Source: a virus
Virus record (IMG/VR): IMGVR_UViG_3300009001_002140
Location: 1 to 49,719 of that record
DNA: 49,719 bases
Strand: one strand, 5' to 3'
Below are positions 23,836 to 33,339 of the stretch, piece by piece (position 1 is the stretch's first letter; every line of letters begins with the position of its first letter). The notes under the pieces are model-generated. The model ran no database searches and was not told the DNA's origin. It was given only the letters and a program-made list of their open reading frames with translations. Both the position numbers and the translations under genes were made by a program.

Positions 23836-23930
23836 TTTTTAAAAAGCTCTTTGGATATATTCCTGTTTTTAAACTTGACAAAAGTAAACATAGACAATAT
23901 AATAGTTTATATGAAGACTTATGTATGTGA
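23832..23930 (+). CDS. Possible small protein (32 aa)
   Basis: A basic 32-residue frame coupled by ATGA to the previous gene. The promoter at 23875-23903 lies inside it, so it may be only spacer. Confidence 0.3.
   Translation: MIFKKLFGYIPVFKLDKSKHRQYNSLYEDLCM
23875..23903 (+). promoter_or_regulatory. Consensus sigma70-type promoter for RNase H gene
   Basis: TTGACA (23875-23880), 17 bases, TATAAT (23898-23903): an exact consensus, 34 bases before the ATG at 23937. Confidence 0.88.
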
Positions 23931-23936
23931 GGACAA

Positions 23937-24920
23937 ATGAGCACTTATATTTTAGTAGATACAGCAAACACTTTCTTTAGAGCTCGTCATGTAGTGCGTG
24001 GCGATTTGGATACTAAAGTAGGTATGGCTCTACACATTACACTTAACAGTGTAAAGAAAGCATGGCAAGACTTTAATGCAGATCATGTTGTATTCTGTTT
24101 AGAAGGACGCAGTTGGCGTAAGGACTATTATGAGCCTTACAAGCGTAACAGACAAGAAACTCGTGATGCAATGACTCCTGCACAGCAAGAAGAAGATACT
24201 GTGTTTTGGGAAATCTTTGATGAATTCAAAGACTTTATTGGCACAAAAACTAACTGTACTATGATGCGTCATCCGCAATTAGAAGCAGATGATTTGATTG
24301 CTGGTTGGGTACAATCACATCCTAATGACAATCATGTTATTATTAGCACAGACGGTGACTTTGCACAATTGATTGCTCCTAACGTAAAACAGTACAACGG
24401 TGTTAGCAATACAACTATTACACACGAAGGCTACTTTGACGACAAAGGTAAACCTGTTGTAGATAAGAAAACTAAAGAGCCTAAAGGTGCTCCTGATCCG
24501 CAATGGCTACTATTTGAAAAATGTATGCGAGGTGATACAAGTGACAATGTTTTCTCTGCTTATCCAGGTGTTAGAAAAAAAGGTACAAAGAACAAAGTTG
24601 GTCTTATAGAAGCGTTTGAAGATAAAAGTACAAAAGGCTTCAACTGGAATAATATGATGCTACAGCGTTGGGTTGATCATAATGGTGATGAGCACCGTGT
24701 ACTAGACGATTACAATCGCAACGTTACATTGTGTGATTTGTCTGCACAACCTACAGAGATTAGAGAGATAATTAATAACACTATTGCAGAAGTAGAACCT
24801 AAGAACATATCACAGGTTGGTATGCGCCTTATGAAGTTTTGTGCCAAGTGGGATATGCAACGAATTGCAGACCAAGCAGCATCTTTTGCAGAACCTTTAC
24901 AAGCGAGATACCCTAAATGA
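23937..24920 (+). CDS. rnh: T4 RNase H-like 5'-3' exonuclease (FEN family)
   Basis: A 327-residue nuclease, near the 305 of T4 RNase H. ILVDTANTFFRA gives the first metal Asp; EGRSWRKDYYEPYKRNR the basic helical arch; LEADDLIAG and STDGDFAQL further acidic ligands; RGDTSDNVFSAYPGV the late Asp pair and the helix-hairpin-helix entry. It would remove RNA primers and flaps during lagging-strand synthesis. It has its own exact promoter. Confidence 0.93.
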   Translation: MSTYILVDTANTFFRARHVVRGDLDTKVGMALHITLNSVKKAWQDFNADHVVFCLEGRSWRKDYYEPYKRNRQETRDAMTPAQQEEDTVFWEIFDEFKDFIGTKTNCTMMRHPQLEADDLIAGWVQSHPNDNHVIISTDGDFAQLIAPNVKQYNGVSNTTITHEGYFDDKGKPVVDKKTKEPKGAPDPQWLLFEKCMRGDTSDNVFSAYPGVRKKGTKNKVGLIEAFEDKSTKGFNWNNMMLQRWVDHNGDEHRVLDDYNRNVTLCDLSAQPTEIREIINNTIAEVEPKNISQVGMRLMKFCAKWDMQRIADQAASFAEPLQARYPK

Positions 24921-25390
24921 CATTAAAAGCAAAATCAGTATTAAAAGATAAATTTTGGATTGTTGAAGAAGACGATCAAAGAGTTGGAACACTTTCCTGG
25001 AATGACGATCGTTATATGTTTTCAAGTACAGCAGAGACTTGTTTCTTTGATAACACTCGCCAAATGAAAAAAAAGTTTGGCACAGAAATGATTTTTGTTA
25101 CTAATGACACAAATATAACAACTGTAGACAAAGATAAAATAGTACACGGTTATCCAACAAGTGTAACACCTTTTAATTCTATGTATGATGTAAAAAGAAA
25201 ACTACCGTTGTTTACAAAAAGTGACAACTCTAAAAGTATGTATTGTGCGGGATACTATGTAATCTGTTTTGACAAAGGATGGGTTAAATCGTTTTGTCCT
25301 AAACTAATTACTGTAGAACGTTATAATTTTAAAGGTCCTTTTAAAACAGAATTAGAAATGCGTCAGGAGTTAAGTCGTGTCAACAAATAG
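24917..25390 (+). CDS. Conserved phage protein (157 aa)
   Basis: A basic protein coupled to the RNase H gene by ATGA. Key segments are KFWIVEEDDQRVGTL near the start and AGYYVICFDKGWV near residue 112, which I recognise as a family in T4-like marine phages. Function is unknown; the pairing with RNase H suggests replication or repair (inference). Confidence 0.65.
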   Translation: MTLKAKSVLKDKFWIVEEDDQRVGTLSWNDDRYMFSSTAETCFFDNTRQMKKKFGTEMIFVTNDTNITTVDKDKIVHGYPTSVTPFNSMYDVKRKLPLFTKSDNSKSMYCAGYYVICFDKGWVKSFCPKLITVERYNFKGPFKTELEMRQELSRVNK

Positions 25391-25619
25391 TCCTTTAAAC
25401 ACTATACCTATACAACAGTTTATTCAACAGGTAAAGAGTGCTGAAAACAGCAGAGCAAAAGAAGTTAAGATAGATATTCAGCAGGCAAAAAATCTTGCAT
25501 TTACTTTAGGTATTGTTATGAGTAGGTTAACTTCTGATCTTGAAGAACTTATTAATAAATCTAATAATACCGAAGAAGTTATTAATATTACAATGGACGG
25601 CGGCAATAGTTTTGAATAA
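25377..25619 (+). CDS. Small conserved protein (80 aa)
   Basis: GTG start with a CAGGAG site inside the preceding gene. It is a helical protein (KEVKIDIQQAKNLAFTLGIV then LEELINK) of a type common next to the previous gene in marine phages. Function is unknown. Confidence 0.6.
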   Translation: MSTNSPLNTIPIQQFIQQVKSAENSRAKEVKIDIQQAKNLAFTLGIVMSRLTSDLEELINKSNNTEEVINITMDGGNSFE

Positions 25620-25642: not shown

Positions 25643-25650
25643 GATAAATA
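25643..25650 (+). promoter_or_regulatory. T4-type late promoter (GATAAATA)
   Basis: GATAAATA 30 bases before the next ATG. A transcript would start about 6 bases after it, within the left arm of the inverted repeat at 25650-25681. Confidence 0.6.
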
Positions 25651-25681
25651 TATGCGTATATTATACAAAGGATACGCATAT
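25650..25681 (+). promoter_or_regulatory. Hairpin masking ribosome binding site
   Basis: Perfect 10-bp inverted repeat: 25650-25659 (core TATGCGTAT) pairs with 25672-25681 (core ATACGCATA). The 12-base loop ends in AAAGG, the ribosome binding site, and the right arm includes the first two bases of the ATG at 25680. Full-length RNA would hide the start; RNA from the late promoter would lack most of the left arm. Confidence 0.65.
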
Positions 25682-25967
25682 GAGTAGGCCAAAGCCAAAT
25701 ATATTATTAGAAAAAGTAAACAACAAAACATATAGAAGCGAACAAGTCCTAGAAGCTGAAGCTATTTGGGCTGTATTCTATATGAATAAAGCTTTTAATC
25801 TTAAAAGTTCAAATGCCCTCACAAATTATCCTGGTCCTAAGTATAAAAAAACTGCTTTTTCTAATCCAGGTCATGCACATAATCTAGCCAAAAAATTAAA
25901 CGATATGTTTAATTGTGATGATTTTACTGTTGTAAAACTCACAGATGGCGAAAAAGTTGACGAATGA
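25680..25967 (+). CDS. Conserved phage protein (95 aa)
   Basis: A basic protein with YRSEQVLEAEAIWAVFY and YPGPKYKKTAFSNPGHA as key segments. I recognise it as a frequent small gene of T4-like marine phages. Function is unknown. Its start lies in the hairpin described at 25650-25681, so late expression is likely. Confidence 0.7.
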   Translation: MSRPKPNILLEKVNNKTYRSEQVLEAEAIWAVFYMNKAFNLKSSNALTNYPGPKYKKTAFSNPGHAHNLAKKLNDMFNCDDFTVVKLTDGEKVDE

Positions 25968-28029: not shown

Positions 28030-28073
28030 CAAAACGAACGGTCTCTTTTGAGGCCGTTTGGCTTTGTTTTTTT
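28030..28073 (+). terminator. Rho-independent terminator
   Basis: AACGGTCTC (28037-28045) and GAGGCCGTT (28050-28058) form a 9-bp stem with one G-T pair and a TTTT loop. A further CAAA/TTTG pairing is possible, followed by seven T residues (28067-28073). It ends the MoxR transcript. Confidence 0.85.
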
Positions 28074-30936: not shown

Positions 30937-30944
30937 GATAAATA
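30937..30944 (+). promoter_or_regulatory. T4-type late promoter (GATAAATA)
   Basis: GATAAATA 29 bases before the fibre-like gene, which has a CAGGAG site. It is flanked by the inverted repeat TTATTA (30931-30936) and TAATAA (30949-30954). Confidence 0.6.
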
Positions 30945-30973
30945 TATATAATAAACGGATCAGGAGTAAAATA

Positions 30974-32533
30974 ATGGCATTACGTCTAAGAAGAGGAACA
31001 GACGCAGAACGTCAGTTAATAACCCCTTTAGAAGGTGAGTTAGTTTATGTTACGGATACAAAGTCCTTATATGTAGGCGATGGAAACACACAAGGCGGGG
31101 TTCTTATTGCTACTTCTGGGGAAGTTTCCAATACATTAGCAGGATTATTAGATACAGACTTTGTTGCATTACAAGATGGTGATGTAATACGATATGACCA
31201 AACAACAGGAGAATGGATTAATTCTCAATCTGCATTAGAACTTGATGATATATTAGATGTATTATTAACAGGATCTGTATACGGAGATGTACTTTTTTAT
31301 GACGGTAACAACTGGAAAAATTTAGCATCTACGGATCTTGTAGATGATGCAATTAGTGCAATTACGCTAAACGAAATTAACGGTGTTATATATACTAGAA
31401 CTCCTAAATACGGAGACGTTTTAACACACGACGGTAACACATGGAAAAATTTAGATATTAAAGATTATGCTGATTATATTCTAAGCAAATCTCAATCTCA
31501 TAGGCTTACTTTAGTAGGCAACGATAGTACAATTCTAGTTGATCCAGTAACAAATACACTAAGAGGTACACTAGAAGGTGATGTTTACGGTACATTATAC
31601 GACGGTCTAGGTAATTTAATCATCGACGAATTTAGTAAAGCTGCTCTTGTAGATGTTAGAGATCCTACTAATACACATACAGTTTTAGATAACTTTACAG
31701 GTGAATTAAAAAGAGGCGAAAACGGACAAACAATTATTCAAGGTGGGGCTTCGCCAGTATTCATTGGTAGCGTAGATGGGCCTGTAAGAGGTACTGTTGT
31801 AGGTCCAGATTTAAACATCATTCTTAACCATGATACAGCAACACTAACAGGCCAATTAATTGGTAGTGTATTTACAGATGACAGTTTAACAGTAGTTGAT
31901 GGCCTAACAGGTAATGTTAATACACCGTTACTAACAGCTGATGACATTAATGCTTCTATAATTACAGCTAGTTTAACTGATCCATTTTCGGGTGATGTAA
32001 AAGACGTTGAATTTGTTTCTTCAGAAACCGAAGACGTAGGTATAAGAATATTTAGACAAGCACAGGTTGCAGATGCATTACAAACAGATATTGGTACAAT
32101 ATATTTTGATTCTGTAGACAAAAACGCAGGCGACTTTCAAAGTACTGGATCTTACATTACGTCAACAGCACAGCAAAACGGTACAGATCCATATCTAAAA
32201 ACAAAAATTAGCATGGGTACTATTGACGGTGCTGGTAATCCTACTTCAGACAACAACTTTACTATTACTTGGGAAGGTAATTTTGGTGTAGGTAAAGATG
32301 ATCCTAGTACTAAACTCGATGTTAATGGAGATATTAAAGCTTCGAATTCAATAGCACCTGGTTCTTTTGCAGATGCAACAGCACGAGATGCTACAATAAC
32401 ATCACCAGCAGCAGGTATGATTGTTTTTTTACAAGATAATCAAGGCTTCTTTGCATATGTTGACGACACAGGACTAGCGGGCGGTGGACCATCAAATGCT
32501 ACACCTGGTTGGTTACAACTAAGTTACATTTAA
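30974..32533 (+). CDS. Tail-fibre-like structural protein
   Basis: A 519-residue protein. The N-terminus LRRGTDAERQLITPLEGEL and YVTDTKSLYVGDG matches the short Mtd-N-like or tail-fibre attachment module found on phage fibres and baseplate proteins. The middle is built of beta-strand repeats with recurring D-G-N-(N/T)-W-K-N-L phrases (about 115 and 155) and G-S-V/G-P-V-R-G-T turns, as in beta-helical fibres. The C-terminus has a short globular end (PAAGMIVFLQDNQGFFAYVD). It may recognise the host surface. Late promoter and strong ribosome site. Confidence 0.8.
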   Translation: MALRLRRGTDAERQLITPLEGELVYVTDTKSLYVGDGNTQGGVLIATSGEVSNTLAGLLDTDFVALQDGDVIRYDQTTGEWINSQSALELDDILDVLLTGSVYGDVLFYDGNNWKNLASTDLVDDAISAITLNEINGVIYTRTPKYGDVLTHDGNTWKNLDIKDYADYILSKSQSHRLTLVGNDSTILVDPVTNTLRGTLEGDVYGTLYDGLGNLIIDEFSKAALVDVRDPTNTHTVLDNFTGELKRGENGQTIIQGGASPVFIGSVDGPVRGTVVGPDLNIILNHDTATLTGQLIGSVFTDDSLTVVDGLTGNVNTPLLTADDINASIITASLTDPFSGDVKDVEFVSSETEDVGIRIFRQAQVADALQTDIGTIYFDSVDKNAGDFQSTGSYITSTAQQNGTDPYLKTKISMGTIDGAGNPTSDNNFTITWEGNFGVGKDDPSTKLDVNGDIKASNSIAPGSFADATARDATITSPAAGMIVFLQDNQGFFAYVDDTGLAGGGPSNATPGWLQLSYI

Positions 32534-32552
32534 ACCATAATAATTAATAATA

Positions 32553-32587
32553 CTCCTTTGTGTTAATAAATAATATACACATCGGAG
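32553..32587 (+). promoter_or_regulatory. Hairpin masking ribosome binding site, late promoter in loop
   Basis: CTCC (32553-32556) can pair with the ribosome site GGAG (32584-32587), and TGTGT (32559-32563) with ACACA (32577-32581), separated by a 2x2 internal loop. The 13-base loop holds the late promoter AATAAATA. Late transcripts would start after the promoter and lose the left arm. Confidence 0.55.
32565..32572 (+). promoter_or_regulatory. T4-type late promoter (AATAAATA)
   Basis: AATAAATA 28 bases before the desaturase ATG, in the loop of the hairpin at 32553-32587. Confidence 0.55.
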
Positions 32588-32592
32588 CATTT

Positions 32593-33339
32593 ATGAATCA
32601 TAATACTGTTGTAAGATCTCTTCAAATTTTAACTCACTTACTTGCACTATACGGTGTGTATTATAGTGTAGTAAATTCAGCATGGGCATTTTTAGGAACG
32701 AGTGTATTAGTATACTGGTTTATAGGAGTCTTTGGAATTAATATAGGATATCATAGACTGATATCACATAGAAGTTTTGAAACATACAAACCTATTGAAT
32801 ATTTACTTGCACTAATAGGTTGCATAACTTCAATTGGTAGTCCATTAGCATGGAGTGTTTTACATAGGCATCATCACGGTCATGCTGAAAAAGATACAGA
32901 TGTTCATAGTCCTTATCATTTAGGATGGTTTAGAGCCTGGTTTGGATTGTGGAGTGTTCCGCATATTAGTCCTAAGCTGTCAAGAGATCTAAGAAAAATA
33001 AAGTTTTATAGATTTACACACAAATATTATTTACATATAATTGCTTTATATATTCTAATACTTGCACTAATTGACCCGTTATTTATTGTTTATGTGTATG
33101 CAATACCTGCTGTATTAGTGCTACATAGCACTAGCGCAATAATAGTAATAGCTCATATGCACGGATACAAAACACATAACACAGATGATGAAAGTCGTAA
33201 CAGTTGGATTGCAAGTTTAATTACACTAGGTGAAGGTTGGCACAACAATCATCATAACAATAGTAAAGCATGGAACAACCAAGAGCGTTGGTGGGAACTT
33301 GATCCGCCTGCTTGGATAATTAGAGCTATAAAAAAATGA
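32593..33339 (+). CDS. Fatty-acid desaturase (acyl-CoA delta-9 type)
   Basis: A 248-residue membrane diiron enzyme. The three histidine boxes are complete: HRLISH (54-59), HRHHH (91-95) and HNNHH near residue 220. Four membrane segments surround them. It would insert a double bond into acyl chains, probably altering host membrane fluidity during infection. The ATG follows CGGAG; an upstream TTG at 32560 lies in the regulatory hairpin and is rejected. Overlaps a second desaturase. Confidence 0.93.
   Translation: MNHNTVVRSLQILTHLLALYGVYYSVVNSAWAFLGTSVLVYWFIGVFGINIGYHRLISHRSFETYKPIEYLLALIGCITSIGSPLAWSVLHRHHHGHAEKDTDVHSPYHLGWFRAWFGLWSVPHISPKLSRDLRKIKFYRFTHKYYLHIIALYILILALIDPLFIVYVYAIPAVLVLHSTSAIIVIAHMHGYKTHNTDDESRNSWIASLITLGEGWHNNHHNNSKAWNNQERWWELDPPAWIIRAIKK

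Follow-up and report, generated by a model that had tools for sequence, protein, structure and literature searches.

An arrangement in which a late promoter is combined with an RNA hairpin over the translation start has been described in bacteriophage T4 for genes e, soc, 49, I-TevI and segB, and in phage Aeh1 for mobE (PMC3014915, PMC2988022). Gene e, which encodes lysozyme, has a hairpin in its early RNA and internal late promoters (PMC3014915). In soc and gene 49 the translation start is sequestered on RNA begun upstream (PMC3014915), while I-TevI, I-TevII, I-TevIII, segB and Aeh1 mobE each have a late promoter and a hairpin sequestering the ribosome-binding site within an early or middle unit (PMC2988022). 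A literature search with partial coverage returned no report of e-type control in jumbo phages. Here we describe a locus in a marine virus of bacteria where, judging from sequence comparison, a gene for a 95-aa protein is very probably under T4 gene e-type control. The mechanism is a known one, not a new one; what is new is a very well conserved case of it at another gene.

The window, that is, the whole stretch of DNA analysed, is a 49,719-base virus record. The controlled gene is an ORF on the + strand (25680..25967) with its ATG at 25680-25682. Upstream of it lies the T4-type late promoter box GATAAATA (25643..25650, + strand), recognized from its sequence and from the conservation of NMTAAATA in relatives. 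The last A of GATAAATA (25650) doubles as the first base of the hairpin left arm, ATATGCGTAT (25650..25659, + strand), which is the perfect complement of the right arm, ATACGCATAT (25672..25681, + strand); both arms are also supported by covariation, and the right arm extends over the first two bases of the ATG, A and T. The 12-nt loop between them, ATTATACAAAGG (25660..25671, + strand), ends in the Shine-Dalgarno (SD) sequence AAAGG (25667-25671). This agrees with the first-pass annotation of the locus, which had reported a perfect 10-bp inverted repeat around AAAGG reaching into the ATG, and a late promoter ending where the left arm begins. Its further claim that the ribosome site is masked fits the start region, which the stem would close, but not AAAGG itself, which is unpaired in the loop. 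The stem takes in the spacer and, from the start codon, the A and U, and we infer that the block would work by closing the SD-to-AUG region and not via SD pairing. With an SD left in the loop, translation may be blocked less tightly here than at T4 gene e. In T4, about one helical turn separates the late box from the transcription start downstream of it (PMC2988020), which places the predicted late start here near 25656 (25655..25658, + strand), inside the left arm.

Perfect repeats with arms of 10 bp or more and a loop of 3-20 nt occur at three sites in the window, against a mean of 1.4 in shuffled sequence. Such a repeat alone is not rare in an AT-rich window, and the case therefore rests on position and conservation. 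The same frequency is what favours reading the repeat as a functionless chance palindrome in AT-rich DNA beside a promoter. Against this stand the presence of the stem in 103 of 123 distinct upstream regions selected by protein similarity alone, its absence at other late-promoter genes, and covariation between the arms in independent lineages; the covariation already refutes a chance palindrome, and we give this reading next to no credence.

The late promoter is itself strongly conserved. NMTAAATA is found within 80 nt of the ATG in 189 of 190 distinct upstream regions of the 95-aa gene, compared with 59 of 442 for other ORFs at the same loci, which bears out the promoter identity originally proposed. 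Within the window, the ATAAATA core is depleted three- to four-fold (9 copies versus 33 expected), and most of those left are found a short way 5' of an ORF, one of them before an Mtd_N tail-protein gene. The family of the T4 late sigma factor gp55 (phrog_234) is represented in nine of 11 large related contigs and in all four of the jumbo isolates; none was found in the window itself, a 49.7-kb fragment. Many relatives (L022, L028, L015 and others) also carry a TRCGTAGATAACT-like element approximately 16 nt upstream of the late box; it resembles the left arm, and several lineages with the hairpin lack it.

The late promoter sits inside a predicted early unit, the setting where e-type control makes sense. 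The putative early promoter, TTGACA-17-TATAAT (23875..23903, + strand), is a 12/12 match to the sigma-70 consensus. It lies about 1.8 kb upstream of the 95-aa gene and ahead of an exonuclease gene (23937-24920), which is followed by a 157-aa ORF (24917-25390) and an 80-aa ORF (25377-25619), all on the + strand. The first strong intrinsic terminator on that strand after the promoter, at 28035..28066, probably ends the unit; the sole other + strand candidate in between (25481-25498) is weak, with a 5-bp stem, and the number of terminator candidates is at chance level. This order of predicted promoter and terminator is in line with the early read-through that the first-pass annotation had assumed. 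Among the relatives, 44 of 54 have a sigma-70-type promoter (at least 11/12) within 2.6 kb upstream. The + strand of the window has ten sigma-70 promoters between 3758 and 28104 that match the consensus at 11/12 positions or better; the spacer is 17 nt in most of them, and they are probable early promoters.

The association of the hairpin with this one gene is close. A promoter-anchored stem of at least 7 bp is present in 131 of 156 sequences of the 95-aa gene, a set that includes loci fetched by the motif itself, versus 0 of about 98 other late-promoter genes; the lone stem match listed among the latter proved to be the same 95-aa gene. A DNA-pattern scan of viral contigs for GATAAATATATRCGTA-N5..25-TACGYATATG returned at least 120 stretches, and among the matches listed each of the 116 newly fetched stretches has the motif right at the start of the 95-aa gene. 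In nearly all relatives the left arm starts on the final base of the promoter. Among those bearing the stem, loop length ranges from 6 to 17 nt, and the position of the right arm shifts with respect to the ATG.

Covariation was assessed in two ways. With the register chosen while leaving out pairs 5 and 8, pair 5 is G-C in 108 sequences, A-U in 49, G-U in eight and A-C in one (Fisher p 2e-32). On a tree made with nucleotide sequences of the gene and the region downstream of it, with the hairpin excluded, approximately 13.5 of 16 supported independent contrasts are concordant and none is opposite (p ~1e-4). This tree was used because that of the 95-aa protein alone yields five supported contrasts, too few, all of them concordant or neutral. 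Conservation of the repeat and covariation of its arms, two of the properties by which the first-pass annotation proposed to judge its reading, are thus both found in the relatives.

These data also bear on whether the repeat acts as DNA. It could be an operator at which a dimeric protein represses the overlapping late promoter, as I-TevI does in T4: promoter and repeat overlap, the repeat is symmetric and AT-rich in its outer parts, and a repressor site over a T4 late promoter provides a precedent (PMC2988022). However, the arm spacing of 6-17 nt is without helical period, unrelated structures replace the arms in other lineages, and no copy of the motif precedes any other gene among the matches listed. 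Furthermore, over nine pairs G-U is tolerated far more often than A-C (26 versus 4), an excess that points to + strand RNA, not a DNA site. We therefore consider an operator very improbable, and take the repeat to form an RNA hairpin.

The effect of truncating the RNA was estimated as the predicted cost of opening the start region from -14 to +4. In the window the cost falls from 10.6 kcal/mol on read-through RNA to 2.7 kcal/mol on late RNA, and the medians for the 95-aa gene across relatives fall from 10.3 to 3.7, compared with 5.1 to 3.5 for other late genes (p 3e-22). T4 gene e, used as a positive control, goes from 15.4-15.6 to 2.0-4.7 kcal/mol. The loss of the left arm from late RNA, as claimed by the first-pass annotation, is what a start near 25656, placed there by promoter geometry, would give. 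The predicted fall is sharp between 5' ends at 25654 and 25655: RNA starting at 25655 or later would lose masking, while late RNA starting at 25652-25654 would still require 7-8.5 kcal/mol, and the model therefore needs a late start no further upstream than 25655. The outer stem pairs have a probability of only 0.5-0.8 in a 500-nt context. We also compared the duplex energy of everything upstream of the start site with that of mononucleotide shuffles; this gave no information, because the left arm is cut in half and AT-rich shuffles pair well.

Among the 23 sequences without the canonical stem, 17 are predicted to form another masking structure, better than shuffled upstream sequence at ≤5% in a coarse test of 60 shuffles per sequence, and these 17 are not all independent. 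The replacements include CTCCGTAT/ATACGGAG in L317, GCTCAT...ATGAGC with an inner stem in L103, L119, L137 and L019, and other predicted structures in L339, L348, L357, L361, PA5oct and Atu_ph07; L356 has a shifted canonical stem. L127, L146/L154, L094 and Phosso gave no significant masking in the shuffle test. In the replacement structures the left arm again lies at or upstream of the late start. The masking device has likely been rebuilt repeatedly, as far as such comparisons can tell.

A hairpin in RNA need not act by releasing the start region in late transcripts. It could affect read-through RNA otherwise, as an RNase site or a thermometer-like modulator, with the late promoter separate from it; covariation shows RNA structure, not its effect, and the outer end of the stem is AT-rich. 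Yet nearly all relatives begin the left arm on the final base of the promoter, and replacement left arms too lie at or upstream of the late start. The promoter and the hairpin thus behave as one device, and we regard a separate role of the hairpin as very improbable. The e-type reading, in which truncation at the promoter frees the start region, is strongly supported by comparison, taking together the promoter, hairpin, covariation, truncation, early promoter and gp55 results; the actual start site and the block to translation are inferred.

Under e-type control, the early RNA from the sigma-70 promoter at 23875 would pass through the exonuclease operon into the 95-aa gene. Pairing of AUAUGCGUAU with AUACGCAUAU in this RNA would close the stretch from SD to AUG and make loading of 30S subunits inefficient. 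The late RNA would be begun by host RNA polymerase with a gp55-type sigma at about 25656, inside the left arm; retaining only some four left-arm bases, it would form no stem and be translated. The 95-aa gene would thus be transcribed through much of infection, and the protein made mainly late.

What the locus shares with T4 gene e is a TATAAATA-type late box positioned at, or inside, the left arm, predicted masking of the start region on early read-through RNA, a predicted late RNA without the left arm, and the same behaviour in the same energy calculation. There are also differences: T4 gene e carries two late boxes against one here, its early RNA is predicted to cost more to open, and in the present locus the SD lies in the loop with the spacer and the AU of the AUG paired. 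I-TevI, I-TevII, I-TevIII, segB and mobE resemble the arrangement predicted here, with a late promoter and sequestering hairpin in an early or middle unit, but encode homing endonucleases, and soc and gene 49, with a start likewise sequestered on RNA begun upstream, are different genes with unrelated sequences.

Unlike gene e, the controlled gene is not a lysozyme gene. Its product is a short conserved protein; viral contigs contain at least 600 relatives, and homologues occur in four kinds of jumbo phage. The protein has no PHROG or Pfam match and no endonuclease match. Its AlphaFold model is confident (mean pLDDT 86.8); the fold has no match in the PDB at E≤0.001, and in a viral library it matches two unnamed viral proteins only. 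A DNA search found no close phage record, and an Rfam search gave no match at E≤1. A leader peptide was considered (ATG at 25652, 11 codons, overlapping the true start) and rejected: in relatives the ATG is missing (ATATACGTA) or a stop follows at once.

Further candidates for this type of control were seen at other genes. In the window, a second e-type candidate at 32552-32587 (CTCC..TGTGT / ACACA..GGAG) surrounds the late box AATAAATA (32565-32572) and precedes a fatty-acid desaturase ORF with its ATG at 32593. L374 keeps this stem with a compensatory TATAT/ATATA change, and more distant desaturase relatives are without the late box. The Mtd_N tail-protein gene of the window has a late promoter without a masking hairpin (30937-30974), and its counterparts in L200, L229, L246, L023 and L071 have very strong SD-masking stems around the late promoter, for example CTCCTAGGTGATA/TATCACCTAGGAG in L200. 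At an unclassified ORF (L074:1964), a 13-bp stem, GTTCCCCATTTAT/ATAAATGGGGAAC, surrounds GATAAATA directly 5' of the ATG. A broader proposal is that jumbo T4-related phages are under strong selection for late-only translation of this uncharacterised core gene, with masking rebuilt several times from unrelated sequence around a fixed late promoter and the device recurring at desaturase and Mtd_N genes as a general timing tool; to us the chances that this proposal is right or wrong appear evenly balanced.

So far, descriptions of the mechanism have concerned a few genes of T4 and of phages closely related to it. The present case would extend it to one gene across a large, mostly uncultured phage group and, with modifications, to jumbo phages infecting Pseudomonas and Agrobacterium. 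The small conserved protein apparently must not be made early, which offers a handle on its function, and the combination of promoter and hairpin provides a sequence signature with which phage metagenomes can be searched for further late-only genes.
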